Assembly: GCA_018830565.1 (NCBI GenBank)
Contig: JAHJRX010000056.1
Coordinates: forward strand, 1 to 64,000
Direction of reading: 5' to 3'
Length of the DNA: 64,000 nucleotides
Origin: a bacterium
GTDB lineage: Bacteria > UBA9089 > JAHJRX01
Within the stretch, counting starts at the first letter, position 1. The number at the start of each line of letters is the position of its first letter. Positions 2,764-53,138 of the stretch are shown here, piece after piece. A model generated the notes under the pieces. That model searched no databases. It was not told the origin of the DNA and worked only from the letters and a program-made list of their open reading frames with translations. Both the position numbers and the translations under genes were made by a program.

Positions 2764-4134
2764 ATGAAGTTTCTTAGAAAGAAAAATCTTTATCTCATAG
2801 CTTTAATCTTACTTTTAAGTCTAAGTATTGGTATAAGTACTTCTATTGTTAATTCTAAAAATGAAAATAATACTACTTACGAATGTTTAGAATTATTTAG
2901 TAAATCTTTAAATCTCATCAAAAATAATTATGTAGATTCTACTAAATTAGAGGATGAAAAGTTAATTTATGGAGCGATAGAAGGTTTAATAAAAAAATTA
3001 GATGATCCTTATTCCCGCTTTATGGACCCTGAAGAATACAAAGAAATGAAGGTGGAAACTTCAGGAAGCTTTGGAGGGCTTGGAATTGTAATTGGGATTA
3101 AAGATGAAAAACTTACCGTAATTTCACCTATTGAAGATACTCCTGCTTATAAAATTGGAATTAAAGCTGGAGATATCATTACTCTGATAGAAGATAAAAA
3201 CACTAAGGGGATTACTCTCTCTGAAGCGGTGCGGATGCTTAGAGGACCTAAAGGAAGTAAAGTTACGATGACTATTCAAAGAGAAGGAGAAAAAGATCTT
3301 CTCAATTTTACTATTATTAGAGATATCATCAAGATTGATAGTGCCAAGTCTGATTTAATTCAAGAAAAGGTAGGTTATTTAAGAATTATAACTTTTAACC
3401 AAAATACTCCTTTTGAGTTAGATCGAGAGATAAGCAAATTAAAAGAACATCAAGATTTAGTAGGAATGATCTTAGATTTAAGAAATAACCCAGGAGGATT
3501 ACTTAATTCAGCAGTAGAAGTAAGTAATCGTTTTATTAAACAAGGTTTAATTGTTTTTACCAAAGGGAGAAATCCCCAGGACAGTTCTCAATATTTTTCA
3601 GATAGAAGTAAAACTACCGTCAACTTACCCCTGATTGTTTTGATAAACGAAGGAAGTGCCAGTGGCTCAGAAATTGTCACTGGAGCTATTCAAGATAGTA
3701 AAAGAGGTATTATTTTAGGCAAAAAAAGCTTTGGTAAAGGGTGTGTTCAAACTATATTTCCCCTACCCCATAACGCCGCGGTAGCTTTAACTACCGCTAT
3801 GTATTATACCCCTTCTGGTCGCTCTATTCATGATAAAGGTATTATTCCAGATAAAGAAGTAGAATATTCTAATTATTCAAAAGAAGACTTAAGCTTACTT
3901 TTAAAGGCTCGAGAAGGAGAGTTTATTAAAAAATTTGTTAAAAATCATAACCAAAGCGAGGTAGAGATTTTATCAAATGAATTAGCAAAAAATAAGATTA
4001 ACTTAAGTCAAGAGATAATCTTAAAAGAGATTAAAAAAGAAAAACATTATTTAAGCCGGGGGAAAAAACCTATTTATGATTTAGATATTGACCAGCAGTT
4101 AAAAGTAGCGGTGGAGATGCTGATAAGCAAATAA
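2764..4134 (+). CDS. ctpA: Carboxy-terminal processing protease, S41 family
   Basis: Periplasmic serine protease that trims or degrades envelope proteins. It has an N-terminal membrane anchor or signal (about residues 8-30), a PDZ domain (about 95-180) and the S41 catalytic domain. Counting from an upstream TTG at 2755, the nucleophile would be Ser303 in the GSASGSE motif and the general base Lys328 in SFGKG, 25 residues apart as in CtpA and Prc. I prefer ATG 2764 because the AAGG ribosome site ends at 2754, which leaves proper spacing to 2764 but none to the TTG. The last codons of the gene are the first unit of a five-copy 77-bp tandem repeat. Confidence 0.93.
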   Translation: MKFLRKKNLYLIALILLLSLSIGISTSIVNSKNENNTTYECLELFSKSLNLIKNNYVDSTKLEDEKLIYGAIEGLIKKLDDPYSRFMDPEEYKEMKVETSGSFGGLGIVIGIKDEKLTVISPIEDTPAYKIGIKAGDIITLIEDKNTKGITLSEAVRMLRGPKGSKVTMTIQREGEKDLLNFTIIRDIIKIDSAKSDLIQEKVGYLRIITFNQNTPFELDREISKLKEHQDLVGMILDLRNNPGGLLNSAVEVSNRFIKQGLIVFTKGRNPQDSSQYFSDRSKTTVNLPLIVLINEGSASGSEIVTGAIQDSKRGIILGKKSFGKGCVQTIFPLPHNAAVALTTAMYYTPSGRSIHDKGIIPDKEVEYSNYSKEDLSLLLKAREGEFIKKFVKNHNQSEVEILSNELAKNKINLSQEIILKEIKKEKHYLSRGKKPIYDLDIDQQLKVAVEMLISK

Positions 4135-4459
4135 CATCAGCCTTCACTACCAATAGCAACCATTGACCAATGGTAGAAATAGTAGCGGTGGAGATGCTGA
4201 TAAGCAAATAACATCAGCCTTCAGCCGTCAATAGCAACATTGACCAATAGTAGAAATAGTAGCGGTGGAGATGCTGATAAGCAAATAACATCAGCCTTCA
4301 GCCGTCAATAGCAACATTGACCAATAGTAGAAATAGTAGCGGTGGAGATGCTGATAAGCAAATAACATCAGCCTTCACTACCAATAGCAACCATTGACCA
4401 ATGGTAGAAATAGTAGCGGTGGAGATGCTGATAAGCAAATAACATCAGCCTTCAGCCGT
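4105..4459 (+). repeat. 77-bp tandem repeat containing the 3' end of ctpA, about 4.6 copies
   Basis: Units start at 4105, 4182, 4259, 4336 and 4413 with an exact 77-bp period. The first unit is the last ten codons and stop of ctpA; the others are non-coding copies of that gene end plus its 3' flank. Units 1 and 4 share one sequence variant and units 2 and 3 another, so the array has diverged and been shuffled since it arose. Variant A units contain a 7-bp palindromic stem (ACCATTG / CAATGGT). Together with the following inverted repeat it fills the 458-bp gap before the next gene; I see no gene in the gap. Confidence 0.95.
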
Positions 4460-4572
4460 CAACCATTAGCAGTCAGCTAAGGCTAATAAAATCAAGTAAT
4501 AACGTCTCAAATATTCCTCTCTCTTGGCCTTAAACAGACTTATTGCTAATAAAGCTGATAGATGAAGGCTGA
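4445..4572. repeat. Intergenic inverted-repeat element (family 2)
   Basis: A 128-bp stretch bounded by perfect 10-bp inverted ends (TCAGCCTTCA at 4445-4454 and TGAAGGCTGA at 4563-4572). The internal segment AGTCAGCTAAGGCTAAT (4471-4487) recurs with changes near 27111 and 32794 and inverted near 49315, and the right part resembles the inverted copy at 54891-54960. It overlaps the last unit of the 77-bp array. Confidence 0.6.
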
Positions 4573-5762: not shown

Positions 5763-5785
5763 GAATTTAAGAATGGTTGTTGGTG

Positions 5786-6904
5786 ATGTTAGGATTTGGT
5801 AAAAAAACAGCGATTGGGTTAGACATTAGTTCTGACTCGGTAAAGTTAGTAGAATTAATGAAGAAAGGGAATAAGATTGTCCTTTTAAATATTGGCATGG
5901 CAAAGATTCCAAAACCAGAAACTCTTTCAGAAAGTAAGACTTTAAAATTTGACCAAGAAAATACTATCCCTATCATTTCTAATCTTCTCAAGAGATGTAA
6001 AAGCAGATATGTTGTAACTTCTGTCCCTTGTGGAGAATTTGTGGTCATTAAACACCTCAAATTACCAGTAGCTACAGAAAAAGAATTAAGAGAAAGTATA
6101 AAATTTGAAGCAGATGAACATATTCCTTTTTCTGCTGAAGAAGTAGAGATTGATTTTGAAATTATTGGTGAAGTTTACGAAAATAAAGAGACCCTGATGG
6201 AAGTCTTGTTAGTGGCAGTGAAAAAAGATATTGTTAATCAGTATCAAGAAATAATAAAGAAGGTTGGTTTTAAGACCGATATAATAAGCGTGGATACTTT
6301 TTCTTTAAGAGATACCTGGGATTTTCAAAAAGGTGTTAATGATAATGAAGTTGTAGCTTTAATTGACATCGGGGCAAAGACTACCAGCATCAATGTTGTG
6401 GAAAAAAGTAAATCGCATTTTAATCGAGTCATTCACTTGGGAGGTAATGACTTTACTGAAGCTTTAGCCAGAACTCTTCGATTAAGTCTTGAGGAAGCAG
6501 AAGACTTGAAGATTTCTAAGGGTAAGGTTCCTTCTCCTTTTGAGGACGTTGAGGTAGCGGCCATGAATATTTCTGTAATTACCGAAGATGAATCTATGCT
6601 CTTATTTAGTGCTATTAACTCTGTAGTTAATAGACTGATGAATGAAATTATGCGGTCTTTTTCTTATTACTATACGCAGTTAAAAAAAGAGGGAATAGAA
6701 AGAATAATTTTAGGTGGTGGAGGGGCAAAACTTCTTAATATTGATGATTACTTAGCTAATGGGTTAGGAATGCCAGTTGATAAGATTAGTTTTTTTGATA
6801 AATTAGAGATTGACTTTGACCAGATCAAGAAAGATGAGGTTTATCTCCAAGATCCAATTTATGCAGTTAGTTTTGGTTTAGCACTAAGAGGGCTAAACTT
6901 ATGA
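5786..6904 (+). CDS. pilM: Type IV pilus assembly protein PilM
   Basis: Cytoplasmic actin-like ATP-binding protein that caps the N-terminus of PilN and links the inner-membrane alignment complex of the type IV pilus. Actin-fold signatures are visible: GLDISSDSVKLVEL near the N-terminus, a second phosphate loop region (ALIDIGAKTTSINVV) and the adenosine motif IILGGGGAK near the C-terminus. TTG at 5777 and GTG at 5783 are in frame just upstream; ATG 5786 gives the usual short N-terminus (372 aa). The stop overlaps pilN as ATGA. Confidence 0.94.
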   Translation: MLGFGKKTAIGLDISSDSVKLVELMKKGNKIVLLNIGMAKIPKPETLSESKTLKFDQENTIPIISNLLKRCKSRYVVTSVPCGEFVVIKHLKLPVATEKELRESIKFEADEHIPFSAEEVEIDFEIIGEVYENKETLMEVLLVAVKKDIVNQYQEIIKKVGFKTDIISVDTFSLRDTWDFQKGVNDNEVVALIDIGAKTTSINVVEKSKSHFNRVIHLGGNDFTEALARTLRLSLEEAEDLKISKGKVPSPFEDVEVAAMNISVITEDESMLLFSAINSVVNRLMNEIMRSFSYYYTQLKKEGIERIILGGGGAKLLNIDDYLANGLGMPVDKISFFDKLEIDFDQIKKDEVYLQDPIYAVSFGLALRGLNL

Positions 6905-7440
6905 CTAAGATTAATTTATTAATTAATAAGTTAATCGAAATAAGAAGAAAGAGAAGAATTGTTATCTTTGTAGCAACCACAGCCGTAGTCATCTTATCTT
7001 TTATGTTAGGCATCTTTTTAGAAAAATGGTGGCAATATCAAGGTTTAAGACAAGAATTAACTTCATTAGAAGGACAATTCTTAGAAATAGAAGAAGTAGT
7101 TGTTCAAGTAGAGACATTGAAGAAGGAAAAAGAATTAATGAAGAAGAGAATTGATATTATTAAAGCTCTCCTGAAGACTCAAATGCTTTGGACTCGTATA
7201 TTAGAAGAGGTTAATCAATCTATTCCGGCGGGTTTATGGCTTAGAAATTTTGGATTTCAAGAAGAAGGTAAGGTGGAATTAAAAGGAAGTTCGTTAGGAA
7301 ATTATCCCATTGTTAATCTAATGATCAACTTAAAAAAATTTCCTCTTTTCAAGGAAGTAAGTCTAAAGAGTATTGAAAAAACCTCAAAGGGTAAAGAAAG
7401 AATTCAAAATTTTCATCTGGAGTTTAAAGTAGGAGGGTAA
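6901..7440 (+). CDS. pilN: Type IV pilus assembly protein PilN
   Basis: Bitopic inner-membrane protein of the PilMNOP alignment complex. The 179 residues show the PilN plan: a short cytoplasmic N-terminus starting with the conserved INLL motif (residues 4-7) that docks on PilM, one membrane segment at about 20-40, a short coiled coil (about 45-85) and a periplasmic ferredoxin-like domain containing IPAGLWLRNF. It overlaps pilM by four bases and is followed after eight bases by an unexpected lipoprotein gene rather than by pilO. Confidence 0.92.
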   Translation: MTKINLLINKLIEIRRKRRIVIFVATTAVVILSFMLGIFLEKWWQYQGLRQELTSLEGQFLEIEEVVVQVETLKKEKELMKKRIDIIKALLKTQMLWTRILEEVNQSIPAGLWLRNFGFQEEGKVELKGSSLGNYPIVNLMINLKKFPLFKEVSLKSIEKTSKGKERIQNFHLEFKVGG

Positions 7441-7448
7441 AAATATTT

Positions 7449-8117
7449 ATGGCCAGAAGTAAGAAAGCTAATCTATGGCTAATCATCCTTAACCTTATTA
7501 TTATTTTTATCTCTTCTTGCGGCAGGGTTGATTACTACGAAGCGCCCGTATATCTAAATATTATTAGCACCGGGAGTTTAGACCCGCAAGGTGGTGAGAC
7601 TAAAGGAGCAGATATCGCTCGGTGGTACAAACCAGGGGCTACGGCTGTTTATTATCCTATGAAAGCTAACTTTACTATAGAAGCGATTAGCGCTTATGAG
7701 CCAGCTATAGACTCTATGAAGCCAAAAGGAGTAACCTTAAACAAGATTATTATGAAGTATTACCCTCAAAGTAATGCCGAGCTTGGAAATCCTGCCTTTG
7801 TTATTACTAAGTGGGTAAGTTACTTTATTCCAGTAACTAAAGAAGCTAACGGCGGAACGACGGCTTCTTCTCAAATTAAGATGCAACAAGAAGAAGGAGC
7901 GGGAGAAGAAAAAGGAGTTTCTTTTGCTTTAGAGGTAGGAGATGAAGGGACCGAGAGATTATTTACTTCTGGCATAGGTGGAGTACCTCGAGATGGTCAA
8001 TATTACTGGATCTTAAAGTGTGAATTAGAAGGGATAGACGAAAGAGGTAATCAAGTAAGAGCCGAAAAATATTTATATTTAAATTGTAATGCTCGTATAT
8101 TTGAAGAAGAAGAATAA
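7449..8117 (+). CDS. Lipoprotein of unknown function inside the pil operon
   Basis: I do not recognise this 222-aa protein. It has a lipoprotein signal: basic residues 3-6, a hydrophobic core and a lipobox ending ISSC (Cys24). The mature part is rich in beta-strand-like segments and has no motif I can name. It lies between pilN and pilO, eight bases after pilN and two bases before pilO, so it is almost certainly co-transcribed and co-translated with the pilus alignment complex. Local base composition is slightly less AT-rich than its neighbours in the first 200 bases. A structural or pilotin-like role in the pilus trans-envelope complex is inference from position only. Confidence 0.75.
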   Translation: MARSKKANLWLIILNLIIIFISSCGRVDYYEAPVYLNIISTGSLDPQGGETKGADIARWYKPGATAVYYPMKANFTIEAISAYEPAIDSMKPKGVTLNKIIMKYYPQSNAELGNPAFVITKWVSYFIPVTKEANGGTTASSQIKMQQEEGAGEEKGVSFALEVGDEGTERLFTSGIGGVPRDGQYYWILKCELEGIDERGNQVRAEKYLYLNCNARIFEEEE

Positions 8118-8119
8118 AG

Positions 8120-8869
8120 ATGTTTAATCTAACTAAAGAACAACAATATATTGTCGTTACCATTACGATGATGGTTATGTTGGGAGCTATATTTTATAGC
8201 TACCTTTATTCTCCTTTATCTTCTAAGACAGAAATCTTAAAAGAAGATCTTTGGGCAAAGAGAGAAGTATTAGGAAAAAACAAACTTATTGCTAATAAGA
8301 TGAATATCTTAAAAGCAGAACATAAAAAACTAAGAGATGAGTTATTTTACATTGAAGAAAGATTACCCAAAGAAAAAGAGATGGCCAGCTTATTAAAACA
8401 AGTGAGTGAGATAGGTCTAATGTCGGGAGTAGAATTTACTATTTTTAAACCCTTAGAGATTAAGAAAGAAGTTTATTATGAAATAATGCCTATTGAAGTA
8501 AACATGGAAGGAACTTATCATAATTTAGGAAATTTTTTAAGTAAGATAGGGAATTTACCTCGGATTATTACTCCTCATATCAAGGAAATTACTGCTTTTA
8601 CCGAAACTATTAAAGAAGAGACCCCATCAGGAAAGACTTCTTCTTCACCAGCTTCTCAGGAATCCGCAGTCAAGGCAGCTTTAGAAGGAAATTCTAGCGA
8701 AGAAGAGATGGCTACTACCTCTAAAAGAGAAAGGAAATCCCCTTATACCCTAACTTCAAAATTAATAATGGAGGCCTATATCTTTAAAGAAGAACCTAAA
8801 GAAGAGAAGAAAGAAACATCTTCCTTAATTTCCAAAGGGTCCCCTAAGGAGGGGGAAGAATATTTTTAG
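8120..8869 (+). CDS. pilO: Type IV pilus assembly protein PilO
   Basis: Inner-membrane partner of PilN. It begins with an ATG at 8120 and has one membrane segment at about residues 13-33, a periplasmic coiled coil (about 40-90) and the PilO ferredoxin-like domain (about 90-160) with GTYHNLGNFLSKIGNLPRI, a typical PilO stretch. From about residue 165 there is a Ser/Thr/Glu/Lys-rich, probably disordered insertion before a final beta segment (LTSKLIMEAYIF) that belongs to the fold, then a charged tail. Gene order and topology make the assignment firm although the sequence family is divergent. Confidence 0.88.
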   Translation: MFNLTKEQQYIVVTITMMVMLGAIFYSYLYSPLSSKTEILKEDLWAKREVLGKNKLIANKMNILKAEHKKLRDELFYIEERLPKEKEMASLLKQVSEIGLMSGVEFTIFKPLEIKKEVYYEIMPIEVNMEGTYHNLGNFLSKIGNLPRIITPHIKEITAFTETIKEETPSGKTSSSPASQESAVKAALEGNSSEEEMATTSKRERKSPYTLTSKLIMEAYIFKEEPKEEKKETSSLISKGSPKEGEEYF

Positions 8870-8872: not shown

Positions 8873-9427
8873 ATGAAGAAGATTAATACTTTATTCTTGA
8901 TGATCTTAGTCTTAGGATTTCTTGGTTGTAGCCCTCAAAAAGAGATGGCTGATCTCGAAGAGAAAGAAGAAGTTTCTCTTCTGCCCCAGACAAAAGAATT
9001 ACTTTTGCCAGCTACGGAGATAAAGGGGATAAAACCTAACGTGAATACTTATCAATCTTATCAAAAGAGAGATCCATTTGTTCCTTTAATTGAAGAACTT
9101 GGTCTTGAGTATGGTAAAAAAGAAGAAAAAACAGAGGCCACCAAGGCAGGAAAAATGCCCATTGATATAAAAAGTATTTCTCTGATCGGTATTATTACCG
9201 ATAAAAAAGAGAGTTTGGCCTTACTTTATGACAGCAAAAAAAATGGTTATATCTTAAAACGGGGCGAACTTTATGACGATCACAATAATAAAATAGCCGG
9301 AATTAGTGGGGCAATAAGACAAGATCATGTGATTATTAGTCATCAGCAAAAGGACTACAAGGTAACTTTAACCAAGGGCGAAGTTAAGAAAGAAGAAGAT
9401 AAATCCCAAAAAACGGGAGGTGAATAA
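8873..9427 (+). CDS. pilP: Type IV pilus lipoprotein PilP
   Basis: Inner-membrane lipoprotein linking PilNO to the N-domains of the PilQ secretin. The signal peptide ends with lipobox GFLGC (Cys19). After a flexible charged region comes the family motif RDPFVPL (about residues 65-71) and a small beta domain (about 95-170) containing SLIGIITDKKES, as in PilP and GspC-like proteins. The gene sits between pilO and pilQ and overlaps the longest pilQ frame by a few bases. Confidence 0.9.
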   Translation: MKKINTLFLMILVLGFLGCSPQKEMADLEEKEEVSLLPQTKELLLPATEIKGIKPNVNTYQSYQKRDPFVPLIEELGLEYGKKEEKTEATKAGKMPIDIKSISLIGIITDKKESLALLYDSKKNGYILKRGELYDDHNNKIAGISGAIRQDHVIISHQQKDYKVTLTKGEVKKEEDKSQKTGGE

Positions 9428-9431
9428 TTCC

Positions 9432-11660
9432 TTGAAACACAAATACTTAAATTATACTACATTTTTAATGCTTTTAATTTCTTTGCTTTTGCTAATAGGA
9501 GTGAGAATAAACGCCGAGATAAAGAGGGAAAAAGAAAAAAGCACTCAAACACCTCAAATTCCCATGGTGGAATATAGCTTAAATAATATAAAAGTAGTCG
9601 AGGATAAAGAGACGATTAAGATAGTTTTAGAAAATTCTCACCTTCCTCAATATATTACCTTTCTTCTTTCTAATCCTCCTCGTTTGGTGATTAATATAAT
9701 TAATGCTAATTATCAATGTCCGGAGAGAAATATCTTAGTAAATAAAGACCAGATTATTTGTGTTCGTTCTTCTCAATTTCAACTAACACCAGTTAAGATT
9801 TCAAGAGTGGTTATTGATTTAGGGAAAAGATTAAAGCATCATCTTTCGAGCAGAGACAATAATATCATTGTCTCTTTTAAGAAAGGGGAGTTAGAAGATC
9901 TTTGTGAAATAAGTTCGGTGGAACTTAAAGAAGAGAAAAGTTGGATTTCTTTAAATATACCTGCTTTTAAGGGGATAAAATATGATATTCATAAGTTATC
10001 TAATCCAGATAAGATTGTCGTGGATTTAAAAAAAGCTATCTTAAATTTAAAACAACAAGAGATTAAGGTTAATCAGGCAGGTGTTGATAAAATTCGCCTT
10101 TCTCAATATCAAGATCAACCAGAAGAAATTGTCCGGGTGGTATTTGATTTAACAAAAGAAGTTTCGTCTAAAGTTATAGAAAGAGATGGTCAGCTTCAAA
10201 TTTTAGTAGGAGATGTAGAAGAAACTAAGAAAGACCAAGAGAAGTTTGCAAAAGAAATGGTAACAACCAAACAAGAGACAATTTCTTTATCAAAAGAAAT
10301 GGTGAGAAATAAAGTTTCTCTATTGGAAAGAGCTGAAAAAGATAAAGAAAAACTAATAGCAGAAAAAGCAGAAAAAAAGGTATTACCTCAAGAAATAACT
10401 GAGGTAGAAAAACCAAAAGAAGTAAAAGTTAAAGAAATACCCGAAGTTGACAAGAAAGAAGAATTAACTAATTTTAAAAAACCAACCAGTGAAGTAGTAA
10501 GCAAAAAAGAAGAAACAACTTCTCCTGATTTAATCTCTTTAGATTTTAGGAATGCTGATATTATTGATGTGCTAAGAGTTATCTCCCATAAAACAGAAAT
10601 TAATATTGTGGCTAGTAAGAATGTTAAAGGCACGGTGACTATTAAGTTAGATAATGTTACTTGGAGAAATGCCTTGTCAGTTCTTTTGCAAGCCTATGAT
10701 TATAACTATGTAGAAGAAGGTGAAGTCATTAGAGTAGATACCAAAGAAAAACTTATGAAAGAAGCCTTAATGACTAAAGTATTTACCCTTAAATATGCTG
10801 AGTCAACTAAATTAGCTGCTTCTTTAAAAGATATGCTAACCATAGGAGTGGGGAATATAAGTGTTGATACTCGATCCAATGCGATTATTATTACTGATAA
10901 CTTTAAAGTAATTAATTTTTTAGATAGTGTCATTAAGGAACTTGACACCAAGACTTCTCAAGTAATTATCGAAGCTAAAATTATAGAAGTTACTCTTTCT
11001 AATGAAGAAAGATTAGGCATTAATTGGGATGTTAAACCTTTAGGAGTCAAAGAAGATGTTTCCGGTGAGGTGGGAGTAAGTCTCTCGGCAACTGTTCCTT
11101 ATAAAGAATCAAGAGGTTATCTTAATTTAGGGACTATCCAGAAAGGATTTAATATCAATGCTCAAATTTCAGCCATGATGGAAGAAGGAAAATTAGATAT
11201 CTTATCTAATCCTCGGATTGTAGCTTTAAATGGCCAAGAAGCTAAAATTATCGTAGGAGAGGAAGTTCCTTATAAAACTACCACCGTGGGCACAGGGGGT
11301 ACTTCTACGGAACAAGTTTCTTTTAAAGAAGTAGGTATCAAGTTAATAGTTACTCCAACCATTAATACTAATAATTATATTACTTTAAAGATTCACCCTG
11401 AGGTTTCGGATGTCAAAGAGTGGAAATATGAGATGCCTATTATTTCTAAAAGAGAGAGTGATTCTTTAATCTTAGTTAAGGATAAAGAGACTATTGTCAT
11501 CGGAGGGTTAATAAAAGATAAAAAGATTATTACTGATTACGGTGTCCCTTATTTAAGAAGAATCCCTCTTCTCGGTCGACTCTTTAAAAGTAAGTTTACA
11601 GAAACAAAGAAGACAGAATTATTGATATTCATTACACCTACGATAATAGCTGATAAATGA
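9432..11660 (+). CDS. pilQ: Type IV pilus secretin PilQ
   Basis: Outer-membrane secretin through which the pilus passes. After a signal peptide there are two AMIN domains (about residues 45-135 and 155-265), a charged low-complexity linker (about 270-365), a secretin N0/STN-like domain (LDFRNADIIDVLRVISH), a NolW-type domain (VFTLKYAESTKL) and the C-terminal secretin barrel with SNPRIVALNGQEAKI and VPYLRRIPLLGRLFK. The frame is open from GTG 9420, but the strong GGAGG covers 9416-9420, so TTG 9432 is the likelier start. The 3' end is duplicated together with the start of the next gene. Confidence 0.94.
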   Translation: MKHKYLNYTTFLMLLISLLLLIGVRINAEIKREKEKSTQTPQIPMVEYSLNNIKVVEDKETIKIVLENSHLPQYITFLLSNPPRLVINIINANYQCPERNILVNKDQIICVRSSQFQLTPVKISRVVIDLGKRLKHHLSSRDNNIIVSFKKGELEDLCEISSVELKEEKSWISLNIPAFKGIKYDIHKLSNPDKIVVDLKKAILNLKQQEIKVNQAGVDKIRLSQYQDQPEEIVRVVFDLTKEVSSKVIERDGQLQILVGDVEETKKDQEKFAKEMVTTKQETISLSKEMVRNKVSLLERAEKDKEKLIAEKAEKKVLPQEITEVEKPKEVKVKEIPEVDKKEELTNFKKPTSEVVSKKEETTSPDLISLDFRNADIIDVLRVISHKTEINIVASKNVKGTVTIKLDNVTWRNALSVLLQAYDYNYVEEGEVIRVDTKEKLMKEALMTKVFTLKYAESTKLAASLKDMLTIGVGNISVDTRSNAIIITDNFKVINFLDSVIKELDTKTSQVIIEAKIIEVTLSNEERLGINWDVKPLGVKEDVSGEVGVSLSATVPYKESRGYLNLGTIQKGFNINAQISAMMEEGKLDILSNPRIVALNGQEAKIIVGEEVPYKTTTVGTGGTSTEQVSFKEVGIKLIVTPTINTNNYITLKIHPEVSDVKEWKYEMPIISKRESDSLILVKDKETIVIGGLIKDKKIITDYGVPYLRRIPLLGRLFKSKFTETKKTELLIFITPTIIADK

Positions 11661-11790
11661 TAGTAAAAAATCTCTTTCCTGAGTACATTCAAAATAAATT
11701 TATTTAAATTATTACGCCTACGATAATAGCTGATAAATGATAGTAGAAAATTCCTCTCCTGAGTTTATTCAAATTATAAGATTATTTAAG
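11631..11790 (+). repeat. 80-bp direct duplication of the pilQ/udg junction, with udg remnant
   Basis: The segment from 11631 repeats at 11711 with an exact 80-bp offset. Unit 1 holds the last codons and stop of pilQ overlapping an ATGA start (ATG 11657) of a truncated glycosylase copy of 16 codons that ends at TAA 11705-11707. Unit 2 holds a copy of the pilQ end followed by the intact glycosylase start (ATG 11737). The original arrangement was therefore a four-base pilQ/udg overlap. The two units differ by several substitutions, so the duplication is not recent. Confidence 0.92.
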
Positions 11791-17597: not shown

Positions 17598-18601
17598 AGT
17601 CGGTGGGTATTATTGGCATAGGGACTTATCTTCCAGAGAAGATTATTACTAACCATGATTTAGAAAAGTTAGTTGATACTTCTGATGAGTGGATTACAAC
17701 TCGAACAGGTATTAAAGAAAGAAGATTTGCTGATAAGGAAATGGCAGCTTCTGACTTAGGAACTATAGCCGCTTCAAGGGCTATCTTAGATGCTCATATT
17801 AAGAAAGAAGAGATTGATCTTTTAATAGTAGCAGCTATGGTGCCTGATATGCTTTTTCCTTCCACGGCTTGTCTTGTTCAAGGTAAATTAGGGTTGAGAA
17901 AAGATATCATAGCTTTTGATCTTTCTGCGGCTTGTTCTGGTTTTATTTATGCCTTAGAAGTAGGAAGGCAGTTTGTCTTAAGTGGCAACTGTAAGACGGT
18001 ATTAATTATAGCTTCTGAAGTTATTTCTAAAATTATTGATTGGGAAGACCGAAATACTTGTGTCTTGTTTGGAGATGGAGCAGGAGCAGTAATTTTAAAG
18101 GAAGTTACTTCTGGATCTGGGATCATAAGTTCTTATTTTGGATGTGATGGAGAGCTGGCTAATTTGTTAGAAATGCCGGCCGGAGGGAGTAGATTTCCAG
18201 CAAGCAATGAGACAATAAGAGAACGGTTTCATTACCTAAAGATGAAAGGCAATGAGTTATTTAAGATAGCCGTGAAGATGATGTTTCATTCAGTCAAAGA
18301 AGCGTTAAAGAGAGCTGAAATAAGTCATAAAGATGTAGATTTATTAATTCCTCATCAAGCTAACATTAGAATTATTGATGCCGTGGCCAAGATGTTAAAA
18401 TTTCCTAAAGAGAAAGTCTTTATTAATTTAGATAAATATGGAAATACTTCAGCAGCTTCTTTGATTATTGCCCTTAAAGAAGCTAGGGAAGAAGGGAGAT
18501 TAAACGAAGGCGATACTTTAGTTACTACAGCTTTTGGCGCCGGTTTAACTTGGGGGGCAAATGTAATTAAATGGGGTGGCTTAAATAATAGACCCAAATA
18601 A
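17594..18601 (+). CDS. fabH: 3-oxoacyl-ACP synthase III FabH
   Basis: Initiates fatty acid synthesis by condensing acetyl-CoA with malonyl-ACP. The catalytic triad is visible as Cys114 (SAACSGF), His254 (IPHQANIRI) and Asn284 (GNTSAAS). The TTG start at 17594 overlaps the plsX stop. The last codons and stop are duplicated 47 bp downstream. Confidence 0.96.
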   Translation: MKSVGIIGIGTYLPEKIITNHDLEKLVDTSDEWITTRTGIKERRFADKEMAASDLGTIAASRAILDAHIKKEEIDLLIVAAMVPDMLFPSTACLVQGKLGLRKDIIAFDLSAACSGFIYALEVGRQFVLSGNCKTVLIIASEVISKIIDWEDRNTCVLFGDGAGAVILKEVTSGSGIISSYFGCDGELANLLEMPAGGSRFPASNETIRERFHYLKMKGNELFKIAVKMMFHSVKEALKRAEISHKDVDLLIPHQANIRIIDAVAKMLKFPKEKVFINLDKYGNTSAASLIIALKEAREEGRLNEGDTLVTTAFGAGLTWGANVIKWGGLNNRPK

Positions 18602-18654
18602 ATTTTAATGTAATTAAATGAGATGGTTTAAACAATAGACCCAAATAAATTTTT
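18561..18654 (+). repeat. 47-bp direct duplication of the fabH 3' end
   Basis: The segment from 18561 (last codons and stop of fabH) recurs from 18608 with a 47-bp offset and a few substitutions. The copy is non-coding. It is followed by a short imperfect duplication of TAGGATTAGATTTTT just before fabD. Confidence 0.88.
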
Positions 18655-21163: not shown

Positions 21164-22411
21164 GTGCAAAAAAGAGTAGTAATTACAGGAAGAGGAATTA
21201 TTTCTCCTCTTGGGCACAATTTAGAAACTATCTGGGAATCTTTAATTAAGGGAAAAAGTGGGGTAAATAAGATTACTTCTTTTGATACGAGTGGTTATTC
21301 TTCTCGTATAGCCGCTACTATAGATAACTTTGATCCTACTCTTTTTATGGATAAAAAAGATATTAAAAGAACAGCTCGTTTTGCTCAATTAGCTATAGCA
21401 GCTAGTGTTAAGGCTATTCAAGAGGCCAGATTAGATTTAGAGAAAGAAGACCTTGATCAAATTGGAGTTTATATAGGATCGGGGATTGGGGGCTTAGATG
21501 TCATAGAAGAAGAACATAGGATTTTATTAGAGAAAGGGCCCAAGAGAGTAACTCCATTTTTTATTCCGATGTTGATTATTAATATAGCTTCTAGTTGGGT
21601 TTCCATTATTTATGGATTCAAAGGCCCGAATTCTGCGGTCGTTACCGCTTGTGCTTCTGGATCTCATGCCATTGGAGATGCGGCTAGTATCATTAGACGA
21701 GGGGATGCCGAAGTAATGATTGCTGGAGGAACTGAGGCAGCCATTACTCCGTTGAGTTTTGCTGGATTTTGCACCGCCAGAGCGCTTTCCACTCGAGATG
21801 TTTCTCCAGAAAAAGCTAGCTGCCCTTTTGATTTAAAAAGAGATGGATTTGTGATGGGTGAAGGAGCAGGTATTGTAGTTCTGGAATCTTTAGAACATGC
21901 TCTAAAGAGAAACGCTTCTATTTACGGAGAAATAATTGGTTACGGGTTAACTGGCGATGCATATCATATTACCTCTCCTTCACCTGATGGAAAAGGAGCT
22001 GTTAGAGCTATGGAGATGGCTTTAAGAAATGCCAATGTTAGTCCAAAAGAAGTAGATTATATAAATGCCCATGGTACTTCTACTAAGTTAAATGATCAAG
22101 GTGAAACATTAGCCATTAAAGAGGTTTTTAAAGAGCATGCTTATCACATTCCTATAAATTCAACTAAATCGATGATTGGACATTTATTAGGTGCAGCTGG
22201 AAGTGTAGAATTTATAGTGAGTTTAATGTGCATGGAAAAAAAGATGGTTCATCCAACTATAAATTATGAAGATCCTGATCCGGAATGCGATTTAGATTAT
22301 GTGCCTAATAAACCACGAGAGGTAGAAATAAAAATATTTCTTTCTAATTCTTTTGGATTTGGTGGGCATAATGTCTGCTTAGTTGGAAAAAAATATGAAG
22401 ATGAGGGTTAG
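21164..22411 (+). CDS. fabF: 3-oxoacyl-ACP synthase II FabF
   Basis: Chain-elongating beta-ketoacyl-ACP synthase. Catalytic Cys163 ([11 protein letters not shown]), His303 ([11 protein letters not shown]) and His340 ([12 protein letters not shown]) are present, with Lys335. GTG start at 21164. The last part of the gene is duplicated downstream as part of a 195-bp unit. Confidence 0.96.
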
Positions 22412-22744
22412 TAATGATTACCGAAGAGAGAAAGAATTAGAAAGAAGTTAGAAGAAAAAATTGAGTATAGTTTCCAAAATAAAGATTATTTAGATTTATC
22501 TTTGGTTTATAGTTCTTTTACTTGCGAGAAAAATATTTCTTTTGCTTATGGATTTGGTGGGCATAATGTCTGCTTAGTTGGAAAAAAATATGAAGATGAG
22601 GATTAGTAATGATTATCGAAGAGAGAAAAAAAGAATTAGAGAAGTTAGAAGAAAAAATTGAGTATAGTTTCAAAAATAAAGATTATTTAGATTTAGCTTT
22701 GGTTCATAGTTCTTTTGCTTACGAGAAAAATAGCTACTCTCAAA
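22355..22744 (+). repeat. 195-bp direct duplication of the fabF/rnc junction with gene remnants
   Basis: Unit 1 (22355-22549) holds the true fabF end followed by a decayed rnc start: ATG 22414, stopped after eight codons by an indel, with further substitutions. Unit 2 (22550-22744) holds a non-coding copy of the fabF end (to TAG 22606) followed by the intact rnc start at ATG 22609. Both the fabF stop-rnc start spacing and the 195-bp period are the same in both units. The unit carries many differences between copies, so it is old. Confidence 0.95.
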
Positions 22745-24976: not shown

Positions 24977-26117
24977 TCTTACTGAAGAACAAGAACTAAT
25001 AAGAAAGACGGCCTCAGAAATTTGCCAGGAGGAGTTTGCCCCAAGAGCAAATGAAGTTGATGAAAGAGGAGAGTTTCCGGTAGAAAATGTCAAAAAATTA
25101 GCGGCTTATGATTTAATGGGTATTCCTGTTCCTGCGGAATATGGAGGGTTAGGTTATGACTTTGTAACCTGGACTTTAGTGGGGGAAGAGATTTCTAAGG
25201 CTTGTGCTACTACGGGAGCTATCTTTGGAGCTAATATGCTTTGTCTTTATCCTATTATGTTATTTGGAAGCGAGGAACAAAAAAGAAAGTATCTTGTTCC
25301 TTTAGCCAAGGGAGAAAAGATTGGCGCTTTTGGTCTTACCGAACCAAATGCTGGCTCAGATGCTGGGAGCATCCAAACTAAAGCCGTAAAGAAAGACAGT
25401 AGTTATATTCTTAATGGAACTAAGATCTTTATTACTAATGCCGGAGAAGCAGATATTTATGTGATCTTAGCTAAGACTGACCAGGAACGGGGAGCAAGAG
25501 GAATGAGTGCTTTTATTGTAGAGAAAGGAACACCTGGTTTTACTTTTGGTAAAAATGAAAATAAGATGGCCTATAAAGCCTTGCCTAATAGAGAACTTAT
25601 TTTTGAGAATTGCCAAATACCCCAAGAAAATTTACTTTATAAAGAAGGAAGAGGTTTTAGGGTAGCGATGCAGACTTTGGATCTAGGAAGAATAGGCATG
25701 GGTATTGGAGCAGTGGGATTAGGCCAAGCAGCATTTCATGAAGCGGTGAAGTATGCTAAAACCAGGATCCAATTCGATAAACCCATTTCAAGCTTTCAAG
25801 CTATCCAATTTATGTTAGCTGATATGGCTACTGAAATTGAAGCAGCTAGGCTTTTAATCTTAAAAGCTGCTTTTTTAAAAGATCAAGGTCAAAAGTTTGA
25901 AGATATAGCGGCCATGGGAAAGTTATATGCTTCTGAAGTAACCATGAGGGTAGTAAACAAAGCCGTTCAGATTCATGGAGGATACGGTTATTGTAAGGAA
26001 TATCCTGTCGAACGATATTTTCGAGAGGCTAAGCTTTTTGAAATAGTAGAAGGAACCTCAGAAATTCAAAGAGGAGTAATTGCTAATTATATCTTAAGAC
26101 AAAAAGGTGGAGAATGA
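24966..26117 (+). CDS. Acyl-CoA dehydrogenase
   Basis: FAD-dependent enzyme introducing the alpha-beta double bond in acyl-CoA, passing electrons to ETF. 383 aa with FGLTEPNAGSDAGS (substrate/FAD region), GGYGYCKEYPVERYFREAK and the catalytic glutamate Glu362 in VEGTSEIQR, the short-chain (butyryl-CoA) arrangement. The gene is followed by etfB and etfA, its electron acceptor. The original junction with etfB is an ATGA overlap, now at the first of three tandem copies. Confidence 0.94.
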   Translation: MNFNLTEEQELIRKTASEICQEEFAPRANEVDERGEFPVENVKKLAAYDLMGIPVPAEYGGLGYDFVTWTLVGEEISKACATTGAIFGANMLCLYPIMLFGSEEQKRKYLVPLAKGEKIGAFGLTEPNAGSDAGSIQTKAVKKDSSYILNGTKIFITNAGEADIYVILAKTDQERGARGMSAFIVEKGTPGFTFGKNENKMAYKALPNRELIFENCQIPQENLLYKEGRGFRVAMQTLDLGRIGMGIGAVGLGQAAFHEAVKYAKTRIQFDKPISSFQAIQFMLADMATEIEAARLLILKAAFLKDQGQKFEDIAAMGKLYASEVTMRVVNKAVQIHGGYGYCKEYPVERYFREAKLFEIVEGTSEIQRGVIANYILRQKGGE

Positions 26118-26377
26118 ATATTATTGTCTGTATTAAACAAGTTCCAGATACTTCAGAAGTTAAGATAGGTAGAGAGACTAATACTATTAAAGACAAAAAG
26201 GTGGAGAATGAATATTATTGTCTGTATTAAACAAGTTCCAGATACTTCAGAAGTTAAGATAGATAGAGAGACTAATACTATTAAAGACAAAAAGGTGGAG
26301 AATGAATATTATTGTCTGTATTAAACAAGTTCCAGATACTTCAGAAGTTAAGATAGATAGAGAGACTAATACCTTAA
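26096..26377 (+). repeat. 94-bp tandem triplication of the acd/etfB junction
   Basis: Three units begin at 26096, 26190 and 26284. Each contains the end of the dehydrogenase gene, its ribosome site GGTGGAG and an etfB start (ATG 26114, 26208, 26302). The first two etfB starts read about 38 codons and stop in the next unit because 94 is not a multiple of three; only the third continues into full etfB. The copies are nearly identical (one GGT/GAT difference seen between units 1 and 2), so this expansion is recent. Confidence 0.96.
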
Positions 26378-29399: not shown

Positions 29400-30105
29400 C
29401 ATCTTTATTATTCTTAAAAAAGAATTTAACAGTTACTTTAATTCCCATATTGCTTATATCTTTATCACTGTCTTTTTAGTTTTATCTGGTTGGTTATTTT
29501 TAAGGGGATTCTTTATTATCAACCAAGCTACTATGCGCGAGTATTTTGAGATCTTACCTTGGTTGTTTCTTTTCTTTGTCCCAGCAATTACCATGAGATT
29601 ATGGGCCGAAGAAAGTAACTTAGGAACTTTAGAAATCTTATTTACTCTTCCTTTGAAAAATTACGAAATTGTTTTAGGAAAATTCTTAGGTAGTCTCTTA
29701 TTCTTAATCTTAAATCTTTGCTTAACCTTCACTATTCCCTTAATAATAACCCTGGTAGGAGATCCAGACTTAGGACCTATCATTGGAGGTTATTTAGGAA
29801 CAATCTTGTTGGGAGGAGCTTATCTATCCATTGGCTTATTTGCCTCGGCTCTTACTAAAAACCAAATTATAGCTTTTATTATAGGAGTGGTTATTTCTTT
29901 CGCCTTATTAATCATTGGAGAAAACTTTATTCTCTTGTTTCTTCCCGATTCTTTAATCTTTATCTTTAAGTATTTAGGATTAGGAGTTCATTTTGACAGC
30001 ATGGGACGAGGGGTAATTGATAGCCGAGATATCATATGTTATCTTTCTTTCATTGCTTTCTTCTTATATCTTAATATTCGATTCTTAGAAAGTAAAAAGA
30101 ATTGA
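29392..30105 (+). CDS. ABC-2 permease, GldF-like
   Basis: 237-aa inner-membrane protein with six predicted helices, overlapping the ATPase gene by eight bases. The segment FVPAITMRLWAEESNLGTLE is the ABC-2 family loop seen in GldF-type permeases. The last codons are the first unit of a 47-bp tandem repeat. Confidence 0.9.
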   Translation: MNNIFIILKKEFNSYFNSHIAYIFITVFLVLSGWLFLRGFFIINQATMREYFEILPWLFLFFVPAITMRLWAEESNLGTLEILFTLPLKNYEIVLGKFLGSLLFLILNLCLTFTIPLIITLVGDPDLGPIIGGYLGTILLGGAYLSIGLFASALTKNQIIAFIIGVVISFALLIIGENFILLFLPDSLIFIFKYLGLGVHFDSMGRGVIDSRDIICYLSFIAFFLYLNIRFLESKKN

Positions 30106-30252
30106 TAGTCAAGACATAATATCTTATTTTTTTAGAAAGTAAAAAGAATTGATAGTCAAGACATAATATCTTATTTTTTTAGAAAGTAAAAAGAATTGAT
30201 AGTCAAGACATAATATATTACTTTTTCTTAGATCTTAGATCTTAGAAAGTAA
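30085..30252 (+). repeat. 47-bp tandem repeat of the gldF-like 3' end
   Basis: Units begin at 30085 (last codons and stop of the permease), 30132 and 30179, period 47 bp, with a partial fourth copy at 30242 after an interrupting TTAGATC repeat. All but the first are non-coding. They separate the permease from the next gene by 162 bp. Confidence 0.94.
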
Positions 30253-35386: not shown

Positions 35387-35393
35387 ACCTTAT

Positions 35394-35509
35394 TATAGCA
35401 CTTATTAATGAAAATTTGACATAGAGCAAATTAATTTGAGGGCAAACAAGTTTATCTTTTATTGCTCGGTATTATTTCCTATGTCCGGTTTTCGTTAATA
35501 ACTACTATA
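35394..35509 (+). mobile_element. 116-bp MITE-like element, copy A
   Basis: Termini 35394-35424 and 35479-35509 are imperfect inverted repeats of about 31 bp (about 25 matches), both beginning TATAG and ending GACATAG. The element carries no ORF. TA at both borders suits a TA target duplication as used by IS630/mariner-type transposases. Copies B (47290) and C (53020, inverted) are the same length within one base. Confidence 0.85.
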
Positions 35510-35578: not shown

Positions 35579-35847
35579 TATATGCAAACCATTAATTAAG
35601 TTGACATACCTCGTAGGGAAAATCCACCCCCTAACCCCCGCCAGCGGGGGACAGCCTCGTGGATGTCCGTTGGTTTCGTTGCCTTTTCGGACAAGGACAA
35701 GCCTATCCCCCGCCAGCGGGGGACAGCCTCGTGAATGTCCGTTGGTTTCGTTGCCTTTTCGGACAAGGACAAGCCTATCCCCCGCTGGCGGGGGTTAGGG
35801 GGTGGAAATACAACTATTATGTCAAATTATTTATCAGATTGCATATA
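35579..35847. repeat. GC-rich inverted-repeat element upstream of tpiA
   Basis: The core has perfect 28-bp inverted arms (35623-35650 and 35779-35806), each containing the hairpin CCCCCGCCAGCGGGGG, and two 72-bp direct units starting at 35635 and 35707 plus the final arm at 35779. The AT-rich flanks are also inverted: TATATGCAA and TTGACATA occur 13 bases apart at 35579-35608 and, complementary, at 35818-35847. The whole 269-bp block is thus one large palindromic element. G+C is far above the genome. The 497-bp gap between pgk and tpiA is filled by this and the MITE copy. Confidence 0.85.
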
Positions 35848-41030: not shown

Positions 41031-41075
41031 ATGATAGGATCTAAAAGTTTAATCCTTAATATTGATGAGCTAAAG

Positions 41076-44000
41076 ATGAAAAAATTTTCTAAGAATAACT
41101 TAGTCATAATCTTGCTTTTAATCTTCCTCATAACTTCTCTAAAAAATGGTTTTTCAGAAGAAGTTTTTCCTCAAAAAGAGACGGTTCAGTCTTTTTTGGC
41201 AAGCTCCCAAACCAAGGAAGTAAAAAAAGACCCTAAAGATGAGAAAGGAGAAGGGGACAAAACTCCTGATGATGAATTAGATCTTAAAAAATTTTTTGAG
41301 AGAGATATTTCTGCCATAGAATCACACATTAATTTCCAAGGAAGAAAGATGATCGAAGCTAAGTTAGGAAATTCTTATTGGGTTAAAGATAAGGAACGAA
41401 AAGATAAGCCTCCTTCTGGAGGATTAGCTGCCGGAGTTGATATTAATCAAGAACTACAAGTAAGAGTCTTAGGAAATATTCAAGATCGAATCTTTACTGA
41501 TATTGATTATGATGATACCGTTACAGATACTCAAACAAGACAAAAATTTCATATAGAGTATAAAGGCAAAGAAAAAGAAGTCGTTAAGGAAGCTGCTTTT
41601 GGAGACTTGCAATTATCTCTTCCTAATACCGAATTTGTTTCTTATAATAAAAATTTATTTGGAATTAAAGCAGCAGTTAATTATAAAAAACTAAGTGTTA
41701 TAGCGGTAGCGAGCCGTACCAAAGGAATTCCTGAAAGTAAGACCTTTAAAGGATATTCCGAACAAAGAACGATCGATATAAGCGATACAAATTTTATGGA
41801 AAGAAAATATTACCAAATTTTAGCTTATTTGCCTTATTTGTCACCACCAAAGGAGATAGGTAAGACTTTGCCCCTCGAAGTTGGGTCAGTTAAGATTTAT
41901 TTAGATAATAGAGTAGGTAGTGATAACCAGAAGGCAACTACGGCGGCAGGAAAAAGTTTTAATAACCAAAATTATTATCGAGGTGAAAATAGCTTTGATG
42001 AGCTTTATCCTATCAGTGATTATGTCATAGACCACCAAACTGGAATGGTTAGTCTTCGTAAAAATATAGGCCAGGACAATATTATCTTAGTGGCTTTTAA
42101 GTCAACTTTAGAAAAAAGAGGATATGATGATCTTGGTAATTTAAATAAAGAAGACCTTCTAATGATTAAAGCTGCTTCAGATATTCCTACGAAAGAAGGC
42201 TATAGCTCTTATAATAAAGAATATTATAAATTTTTTGAACAAAATGGTTATTACTCCTTAGAGATGAATAGTATTAATTTAGATGATAAGGATTTCTTGT
42301 TAGAGATTAGAGATTTAAACAATAAAAATTATGATGATAAGAATAATAATAATGTTAGAGATGGGGATGAGGATGCTTATCTATTTATCTTTGGTCTGGA
42401 TAAGAATAAAGATAATTTAGTAGATTATGAATATATTGACGTTGATTTTGGATTACTCCATTTTCCAAGCTTCACTCCCTTTCTTTTAACAGACGATGAC
42501 CAGCGCTCTAATAAAGACTTATATGATACCCCTAATAAAAAGCCTAAATATAAGATTCATGTAGAATATAAGAGTAAAAAAAAGGAGTTTTTTTTAAGTC
42601 GAATTAATATAGTGATTGATAGTGAAAGAATATACTTAGATGGAAAACTACTTAAAAAAGATCAAGATTACCTTATTGATTATTTTTCTGGTTGGATAAC
42701 TTTTTTAAGAGAAGAAGAGATTGACAAGCAAAGCGAAATTAAGGTTGATTATGAATATATGCCTTTTGGGGGATTATTTAGGAAGAATTTATTAGGGGTG
42801 AGAGGAACATTAGATCTTAGTAAGAATATTTGCCTTGGATCTACTTATATCTACGAAGGAAGTAGTCAAGTTAGGGAGATTCCTGAGATTACTTCTTCTC
42901 CTGAAAGCTTAAGTCTGATCGATATAGATACTAAGATTAATATTTCTTCTATGATCGGGGATCTCTTTAATCTTCCTTCTAAAGATTGGCAGATGGCTAT
43001 CTCTGGAGAGATAGCTAAATCTCAACGTAATTGGAATACTTTTGGAAAAGCAATAATTGATAATATGGAAGGAAACAAAATAAGCTACCATGTTTCTTTA
43101 GATGAAGATTCTTGGAATTTAGGATGGCTTTCTTCTGGTGAAAAAAGAGGAAAGTTGCTTTATAAGTTAGAGTCATATAATGAAAGAGCAGGTCCTTATA
43201 ATGAAGAAGTGGGTCATCTAAACGATGAAGAAAAAAAGAATTCTTTGGTTTTAAAGTATGAAAATACTTTAGAGCAGAGGATAAGTATTGTCAATAGCCT
43301 TTCTAACCCAGGAGTTGACCTTTCAGGATATAAGTATTTAGAGATTTGGGCAAAGATACCAAAACAAGCAAGACTTTATCTAGATTTAGGAATGGTTTGT
43401 GAAGATGCTGATGGGGATGGAATATTGGATAGTGAAGACAAAAATAAAGACCTCTTACTAAATTCTGGAGAAGATACAGGATGGGAGTTTAATGAAGGAA
43501 AGGAAGTTATAACTAAGGTAGGAAAAGGAAATAGTAAGATAGATAGTGAAGATTTAGATAAAGATGGAATCTTAGATACCCAAGAGAAATATTTTACCGT
43601 AGAAGTAAAAGATACTTACCAATCTACCTCTCTTCCAGAAAAGACTAACCCGGAGTGGAAGTTTTATTTAATTCCTTGTTTGGATATAGAGAAGACCATA
43701 GAGGGAAGTAATGAAGAAAAGAAAAAGCTGTGGGAGGTGATTAAGCATCTTCGCCTTAGAGTAGAAGGAGGTGAAAGTGGTGAAATTAACATCGATCAGA
43801 TCTCTTTTGTGGCTAATAAATGGCAAGGAAAGGATATCATCGTTAAATCTTTAAACAGTCAAGACAATCCAGAGTATAAGTCTCTAAAAGATGACCTTCA
43901 ATATGGTAAAGACTTTAAGGATCTCTATAAATATGTAGATCTTGAAAAAGAAGAAGCTTTAGTCTTAAATTATGACTTAGAAAAAAATAAAGAAGGATTT

Positions 44001-47241: not shown

Positions 47242-47289
47242 CTTTACTTTTGCTTTTTTAGAGAGTGAACATCTTAAAACTAGTTTGTT

Positions 47290-47405
47290 TATAGCACCTA
47301 TTAATGAAAATTTGACATAGAACAAATTAATTTAACTACAAGCAAGTTTATCTTTTATTACTCGGTATTATTTCCTATGTCCGGTTTTTGTTAATAACTA
47401 CTATA
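47290..47405 (+). mobile_element. 116-bp MITE-like element, copy B
   Basis: Same length, orientation and termini (TATAG...CTATA) as copy A at 35394, differing at scattered positions, mostly in the middle. Sits in the 274-bp gap between the YchF-like gene and the GAF gene; flanking bases are different from those of copy A, so the borders are real element ends. Confidence 0.85.
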
Positions 47406-47515: not shown

Positions 47516-48130
47516 ATGGAGGTTAAAGATTATCAAAAAGATTTAGCAGAACAATTAAAAGAGTTTTCTGTCTTAGCTAAAGCTTTTAGTGAAACTGGAC
47601 AGAAAATAAGTTTACTTCAAAAAATATTTGGGCTTTTAAATACAAGTTTTAATCTCCATAACTTATTAGACAAAATATTAGACTATATTATTGAAGTAAT
47701 TAATGTAGAAGCAGGGTCTATTCTTTTATTCGATAAAGATAATCAAGAACTTTACTTTGAAGTAGCTAAAGGCTCTAAGGCTTCAGAGGTTATAAATTTT
47801 AAATTAAAACCAGGAGAAGGAATTGCTGGTTCTGTATTTTTAAGTCAAAAGTCTGTGGCGGTGTCAGAAGTAGATAAAGATGAAAGATTTAAACGAGAAA
47901 TAAGTGAAAATATTGGATTTGAGACAAAGTCTATCGCTTGTATCCCTATTATCTTGATGAATAAATCTATTGGGGTGATTGAATTAATTAATAAAAAAGA
48001 TAATAATATCTTTTCTCTGGCTGACATGGAAATTCTTTCTCTGGCCTCTTTTTATCTGGTGAAGATTATTCAAAACACCAAGATTATAGAGAATTTAAAG
48101 AATAAACGAAGAGATAGGGAGGGTAGATAG
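47516..48130 (+). CDS. GAF domain protein
   Basis: 204-aa cytoplasmic protein. A helical N-terminus (about residues 1-45) leads into one GAF domain (about 45-190): ILDYIIEVINVEAGSILLFD, LKPGEGIAGSVF, IACIPIILMNKSIGVIELIN. No output domain is present, so it is a stand-alone ligand-binding or scaffold protein. Its stop shares a base with the GTG start of pilT (TAGTG), so the two are translationally coupled and a role in regulating pilus retraction is a reasonable inference. Confidence 0.88.
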   Translation: MEVKDYQKDLAEQLKEFSVLAKAFSETGQKISLLQKIFGLLNTSFNLHNLLDKILDYIIEVINVEAGSILLFDKDNQELYFEVAKGSKASEVINFKLKPGEGIAGSVFLSQKSVAVSEVDKDERFKREISENIGFETKSIACIPIILMNKSIGVIELINKKDNNIFSLADMEILSLASFYLVKIIQNTKIIENLKNKRRDREGR

Positions 48131-49221
48131 TGAATATCGAAGAACTACTTAATCTTTTAATAGAGAGAAAAGGTTCTGATTTGCATCTTAAAGTAGGTCG
48201 ACCTCCTCTTATCCGAGTCTATGGTAAATTAATTCCTACGGAACTTAAAATATTAACTTTTGAAGATACTAAAGAATTAATTTATTCTATGCTCAACTCT
48301 GCCCAAGTTCAAAGATTTGAAAGAGACTTAGAATTAGATTTTTCATATTCTTATAAAAATATAGCTCGTTTTAGAGTCAATGTTTTTCGTCAGAGAGGAG
48401 CAGTTGGTACGGTTATTAGAATGATTTCCTATAAGATTCCAACTATAGATGAGCTGGGTTTACCTTCGGTGCTTAAGGATCTATCTATTAAAGATAAAGG
48501 TCTGATCTTGGTTACTGGCCCCACTGGGTGTGGCAAGTCTACTACTTTAGCGGCTTTAATTAATTATATTAATAACAATAGAGAAGGCCATATTATCACG
48601 ATTGAAGATCCTATTGAATTTGTATACCAAGATAACCTAAGTGCCATTAATCAGAGAGAAATAGAGTTAGACACTAAATCATTTAAATATGCTTTAAAGC
48701 ATATTTTAAGACAAGATCCTGATGTTATTTTAATTGGAGAGATGAGAGATTTTGAAACAATGTCCATTGCGATGACTGCTGCCGAAACAGGACATTTAGT
48801 CTTTAGCACTCTCCATGCTAATGATGCTACTCAAGCTGTAGATCGGATAATTGATTCTTTTCCTGTCAATCAGCAACCACAAATTCGACTTCAGCTTTCT
48901 TTAGTTCTTCAGGGGATAATTTCTCAAAGATTACTAAATAAAGCAGATGGCTCAGGAAGAATAGCTGCAGTTGAGCTTTTGATAAATTCACCTACCATTA
49001 AGAAACTTATCGAAGAAGGAAAAACCTCCGAAATTCATAAAGCCATTGAATCGTCAGTTCTTTATTATAGGATGCAGACTTTAGATCAATCATTAGTAGA
49101 ATTATATAATAAAGGATGGATTGCTTTTGACGAAGCTTTAAGTATCAGTCCAAATCCTGAAGGATTAAAGCGTATGTCCAAAGGTATTGATACAGGAGCA
49201 TCTCAATACTACAATTTATAA
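48130..49221 (+). CDS. pilT: Type IV pilus retraction ATPase PilT
   Basis: Hexameric ATPase that depolymerises pili. Walker A GPTGCGKSTT at 130-139, Asp-box ITIEDPIEF, Walker B DVILIGEMRD at 198-207 and His-box GHLVFSTLHAND at 221-232. 363 aa. GTG start. PilT carries AIRNLIRE-type C-terminal motifs; here that region reads MQTLDQSLVELY, so PilT versus PilU cannot be fixed from sequence alone. The assembly ATPase and the major pilin are not in the window. Confidence 0.93.
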   Translation: MNIEELLNLLIERKGSDLHLKVGRPPLIRVYGKLIPTELKILTFEDTKELIYSMLNSAQVQRFERDLELDFSYSYKNIARFRVNVFRQRGAVGTVIRMISYKIPTIDELGLPSVLKDLSIKDKGLILVTGPTGCGKSTTLAALINYINNNREGHIITIEDPIEFVYQDNLSAINQREIELDTKSFKYALKHILRQDPDVILIGEMRDFETMSIAMTAAETGHLVFSTLHANDATQAVDRIIDSFPVNQQPQIRLQLSLVLQGIISQRLLNKADGSGRIAAVELLINSPTIKKLIEEGKTSEIHKAIESSVLYYRMQTLDQSLVELYNKGWIAFDEALSISPNPEGLKRMSKGIDTGASQYYNL

Positions 49222-53004: not shown

Positions 53005-53019
53005 AATAAAACTTTTAAA

Positions 53020-53134
53020 TATAGTAGTTATTAACGAAAACCAGCCATAGGAAATAATACCGAGCAATAAAAGATAAACTTGTTGGTACTCAATTAATTT
53101 GCTCTATGTCAAATTTTCATTAATAAGTGCTATA
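53020..53134 (-). mobile_element. 115-bp MITE-like element, copy C (inverted)
   Basis: Reverse-complement copy of the elements at 35394 and 47290, with TATAG/CTATA ends and one base shorter. It lies right after the frr terminator. Opposite orientation to copies A and B shows that it moves independently of gene direction. Confidence 0.85.
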
Positions 53135-53138
53135 AAAC

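Follow-up and report, generated by a model that had tools for sequence, protein, structure and literature searches.

The question raised by this locus is why a lipoprotein gene stands between pilN and pilO, and whether its product belongs to the pilus machine or is only carried in its operon. Here we surveyed the gene, its ortholog and its neighbours, starting from the window, that is, the whole stretch of 64,000 nucleotides that was analyzed. We give about an even chance to the reading that the lipoprotein is a lineage-restricted periplasmic accessory of the type IVa PilNOPQ complex.

The lipoprotein gene and the pil operon

The preliminary description had placed a lipoprotein gene of 222 codons between pilN and pilO. 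Its position proved exact, and the pilM-pilN-pilO-pilP-pilQ neighbours were identified by Pfam and NCBIfam (Table 1), PilP being named from a weak Pfam match, its place and its alignment with the other PilP of the phylum. The same description had proposed to look at this position in relatives, and an ortholog is indeed found there in G001, which belongs to a different genus and is the only other genome of the family (f1) that was examined. The spacings given earlier, 8 bases on the pilN side and 2 bases on the pilO side, hold in the window; in G001 the spacing to pilO is again tight (6 bases), but the gap to pilN is 77 bases. This 77-base gap carries a palindromic repeat with ACCTGAGTTCGA arms (L035:9206-9262), which recurs elsewhere in that genome (L065:7090-7146 and L035:19616) and is absent from the window.

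Table 1. Coordinates of the pil operon, the lipoprotein gene and related features in the window
Feature	Positions	Strand	Basis
pilM	5777..6904	+	TIGR01175, E=2.4e-69
pilN	6901..7440	+	PF05137, E=2e-14; without family-specific addition
Shine-Dalgarno AGGAGGG	7431..7437	+	read in the sequence; overlaps the end of pilN and precedes the lipoprotein ATG
orphan lipoprotein gene	7449..8117	+	ORF with ATG start, 222 aa
type II (lipoprotein) signal peptide	7449..7517	+	n-region KK, hydrophobic core, ISS before the Cys in both orthologs
best conserved lipoprotein block, residues 78-100, EAISAYEPAIDSMKPKGVTLNKI	7680..7748	+	20 of 23 residues identical to the G001 ortholog
pilO, 249 aa	8120..8869	+	PF04350, E=1.6e-25
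family-specific PilO loop, residues about 168-208	8621..8743	+	between the last two conserved strands
family-specific PilO C-terminal tail	8795..8866	+	ends EEYF (EKYF in G001)
pilP, itself a lipoprotein gene	8873..9427	+	PF04351, E=0.0013, below the Pfam cut-off; position; RDPF motif common to PilP of the phylum
pilQ secretin	9420..11660	+	TIGR02515, E=4e-80, just under cut-off; PF00263 above cut-off
second pilT-like ATPase gene (presumed name)	48130..49221	+	sequence

The signal sequence reads MARSKKANLWLIILNLIIIFISS followed by C24 in the window and MLKNKKVNLIIFLVIFATISISS followed by Cys in the G001 ortholog, and both orthologs have the charged n-region, the hydrophobic core and the invariant lipobox Cys of bacterial lipoproteins. 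The lipobox is ISSC24, and the codon of the Cys24 that is predicted to be lipidated lies at 7518-7520. The mature protein is acidic, with a high content of Gly and Tyr, and its two further cysteines, C191 and C213, are also kept in the ortholog. Judged from its sequence, 7449-8117 is a true gene and not a chance ORF, because the ortholog of the second genus (217 aa) keeps 53% protein identity over 216 aligned residues, with pN 0.28 vs pS 0.63. Conservation along the protein is uneven, the block of residues 78-100 included, and this is suggestive rather than strong: when the columns of the mature alignment were shuffled in 20000 trials, an identical run of 13, which is the longest between the two orthologs, was reached in 2% and a 20/23 block in 3%.

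Structure prediction of the lipoprotein alone, which had also been proposed, was done by AlphaFold with two-sequence alignments for the precursor and for the mature part, and gave mean pLDDT values of only 34.7 and 34.4. These low-confidence models show strands and not helices. A Foldseek search with the second of them gave a best E of 0.05 at a TM of about 0.2 and was discarded as meaningless.

The remaining pilus genes of the genome were tracked as well. A pilB-pilT-pilC cluster is present on contig C20, with PilC identified by PF00482 and single in the genome; the names pilB and pilT, as well as that of the pilT-like gene of the window, are presumed from motifs. Because this single PilC lies beside pilB and pilT, the pilMN-X-OPQ operon looks like the one serving an apparently complete pilus system.

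Distribution of the lipoprotein and of genes at the pilN-pilO junction

The gene had been described as unrecognised and possibly lineage-specific, and both statements hold. A profile built from the two proteins matches two of 386 genomes at E <= 0.01, both of family f1, so that the lipoprotein was not detected by profile search in any of the 17 other genomes of the phylum or in 367 genomes beyond it; the 386 genomes were sampled outward from the window and include 19 of the phylum. A second sample of 385 genomes overlaps the first in many genomes and adds no independent count. When the single protein was used as query, 4 of 61 genomes matched at E <= 0.1, the two additional ones being L003 and L004 with E values of 0.06 and 0.08, and these two are not among the results of the profile search at E <= 0.01. 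When the profile limit was relaxed to E <= 10 among the 19 genomes of the phylum, two more matches of chance level appeared (L058 and L059, E 0.13-0.18). The match of L058 is to the N-terminus of a membrane protein that we take to be ResB-like and was put down to chance.

No usable match was found in Pfam (no family at E <= 1), NCBIfam (none), PHROGs or PDB sequences, where Scabin alone was returned at E 0.58-1.4. No relative was found by pattern scans, a method limited to close relatives, when the single protein was run against the GTDB 220 contigs and the alignment against IMG/VR. An origin as a paralogue or as a duplication of PilP or PilO was considered and received no support from sequence and profile comparison: no Pfam T2SSC or PilP family matches the lipoprotein, and its profile similarity to PilP reaches an hhalign probability of 1.3 and is limited to the signal peptide and the residues that directly follow. 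By these sequence searches the lipoprotein is family-restricted and otherwise unknown.

The junction itself was then compared. Among the 19 genomes of the phylum searched for pilM and PilO, 16 gave a readable pilN-pilO locus, and pilN and pilO adjoin in 12 of them (G003, G005, G006, G008, G009, G010, G011, G012, G013, G016, G017 and G018) with a gap of -4 to 153 bases. Two genomes have no PilO match (G004 and G014), and the junction of G015 is unreadable because the contig breaks off there at a repeat. The lipoprotein occupies the junction in both f1 genomes. Beyond the phylum, a PilN-like ORF lies directly upstream of PilO in 29 of 29 loci, 26 recognised by pattern and three by eye (L077, L088 and L090); these loci are the best-scoring PilO matches for which a locus was given, G002 excluded, and favour canonical operons, so the absence of insertions holds for canonical operons only. 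Among the papers listed by the literature search, none concerned an insertion between pilN and pilO in type IV pilus loci.

The last two readable loci, those of both genomes of family f2 (G002, locus L036, and G007, locus L037), hold other genes at the junction. Here the gene of a giant fibronectin/FlgD-Ig protein, 2236-2479 aa long and matching a type IX sorting domain, is followed by that of a PorV/PorQ-family barrel; the NCBIfam scores of the sorting domain and the barrel come from G002, and the giant protein of G007 is split across two ORFs. The junction thus accepts unrelated genes in this phylum. The preliminary description had argued from the insertion to a pilus role, and this argument is weakened because f2 has a cargo of type IX secretion and a barrel of the PorV family at the same junction.

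A protein resembling a type IX translocon is also encoded in the window, at 41031-46115 on the forward strand. This SprA-like protein of a small uncultured phylum has 1694 aa, and its match to the Sov/SprA translocon model TIGR04189 (E 2.3e-55) scores 187.6 bits, slightly below the cut-off of 200 bits.

Selection on the lipoprotein and the family-specific parts of PilO

Between the window and G001 the pN/pS of the lipoprotein is about 0.45, which indicates purifying selection of the strength seen in PilO. The latter has 56% identity (pN 0.27, pS 0.63), PilP has 47% (pN 0.33, pS 0.57) and PilM has 67%, and the identity of the lipoprotein falls between those of PilM and PilP. The two genera are separated by many synonymous-site changes (dS 0.9-1.6).

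PilO carries additions in the same two genomes. In an alignment of 11 PilO, a loop of about 40 residues and a C-terminal tail of some 25-35 residues ending in E(E/K)YF are present in both f1 proteins and absent from the nine others of the phylum. In one part of the loop, 12 of 18 positions are conserved between the two f1 genera (SQESAV..AL.G..S.EE). No comparable family-specific addition was seen in PilN or PilP. The loop comes about 20 residues after the segment matching LPRIVTL, which in the cited passages on P. aeruginosa is the most conserved segment of PilO, placed in a largely unstructured region, and within which R169D and I170A lower piliation and motility (PMC5805733). Counted from LPRI to the end, the f1 PilO have 102 and 106 residues and are the longest of 38, the other 36 having 34-91. 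The upper value belongs to L071, outside the phylum and without such a lipoprotein, and therefore a long PilO tail alone is not diagnostic.

Possible roles of the lipoprotein

Taken together, the position, the selection and the PilO arm suggest a role in the pilus at about even odds or a little better. Such a role is favoured because the gene keeps the same position with tight pilO spacing in both f1 genomes, because the selection on it resembles that on PilO and PilP, because insertions at the junction are rare (none in the 29 loci outside the phylum or in the 12 other readable loci of the phylum) and because PilO, rather than PilN or PilP, is altered in the same two genomes. The single PilC beside pilB and pilT, with its seemingly complete pilus system, and the precedent of the Thermus PilW also speak for it. 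It is disfavoured by the small number of genomes, two, by the low confidence of both structure models, from which neither a fold nor a contact could be predicted, by the unrelated-looking junction genes of f2, by the long PilO of L071 and by the 77-base gap of G001. The earlier suggestion of a part of the alignment complex is plausible, through operon retention, PilO-like selection and the PilO extensions, and remains an inference. The stronger form of it, a new structural subunit of the type IVa alignment complex that is known so far from one family of an uncultured phylum only and has co-evolved with the long C-terminal arm of PilO, we regard as rather unlikely.

The same facts bear on the main rival, in which the gene is a passenger. 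In this reading it encodes an envelope lipoprotein with a function of its own; it would have been inserted at a tolerant junction and retained because it is expressed from there, and the protein would not be physically connected to the pilus. Lipoprotein genes are often found as short operon insertions, and the 2.2-2.5 kaa type IX protein and the barrel at the junction of both f2 genomes show a comparable arrangement; two points speak against a passenger, namely that both genera have retained the gene close to pilO, despite the divergence seen in PilM and in dS, and that PilO is altered in exactly these two genomes. We hold this explanation to be possible, with well under an even chance. If it is right, the f1 and f2 insertions would mean that in this phylum the pilN-pilO junction is not as rigid as supposed and can take up other genes.

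The other role that had been offered is that of a pilotin, which as a lipoprotein of the outer membrane would guide the PilQ secretin or stabilise it, and we consider this role improbable. The lipoprotein is encoded in the pilQ operon and, like the TPR pilotins PilF, PilW and Tgl (TIGR02521), would be a lipoprotein linked to the PilQ system; unlike them it has no TPR match, is predicted to be beta-rich, its low-confidence models showing strands and no TPR helices, and is encoded inside the alignment operon. It shows no similarity to the TPR pilotin model or to any other pilotin family, and the proposal finds no support there. The genome has no TPR pilotin above the TIGR02521 cut-off, which says little as none of 14 control genomes passed it either, and an ordinary pilotin could be among its 46 TPR matches below threshold. 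In E. coli, Gly at position +2 of a lipoprotein goes with the outer membrane, and the f1 lipoprotein has Gly there. The rule is undiscriminating here because PilP, with Ser or Ile at +2, would also be sent outward.

With the lipoprotein taken as an accessory of the PilNOPQ complex, the following mechanism may be proposed. It would be expressed together with PilN and PilO as part of the pilMN-X-OPQ operon. Sec would then export it, and the precursor would be cut in front of Cys24 and receive its lipid; the signal is observed, and processing is predicted. The periplasmic domain, probably beta-rich to judge from the sequence pattern and the low-confidence models, would dock on the periplasmic PilNOPQ column. 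PilO would be the likeliest partner, with its family-specific loop and tail as a putative binding arm, and the docked lipoprotein may link the PilNO(P) ring of the inner membrane with an envelope membrane or with the secretin, or keep both in register. The matching PilO arm would then be a specific candidate interface.

Among known systems the nearest likeness is PilW of Thermus thermophilus (pilMNOWQ), which the cited passages describe as an orphan envelope protein of one lineage, a machine part without sequence similarity elsewhere that is encoded inside the pilMNO-Q operon (PMC6325625, PMC13039148). According to the passage cited, the gene of that PilW takes the place of pilP, between pilO and pilQ, and the C-terminal domain of the protein resembles the GspC homology region (PMC13039148). 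The f1 lipoprotein, unlike it, lies between pilN and pilO with pilP present and has no profile similarity to PilP. Because the place and the neighbours differ and PilP is present, it is by this comparison not a PilW, and the likeness would be one of logic and not of ancestry. It also resembles PilP, another lipoprotein of the operon with a comparable length, from which it differs by the separate PilP gene downstream and by the lack of a profile match. Should the lipoprotein prove to belong to the pilus, a lineage-own periplasmic component in an otherwise conserved machine would be known for the second time, the Thermus PilW being the first.

Repeats were also recorded in the window. Many short tandem duplications of 47-197 nt in 2-4 copies occur at gene junctions (4101-4462, 11631-11776, 18560-18653, 22341-22732, 26096-26377, 30082-30226 and 35630-35773), and several of them repeat part of the adjoining gene, either its end or its start; the beginning of the gene at 26302, for example, is found in three copies. 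Four 77-nt units follow ctpA in the window, and the ctpA junction of G001 is only 18 bases. A dispersed intergenic repeat of about 117 nt is present in both orientations at 35393-35509, 47289-47405 and 53007-53136.
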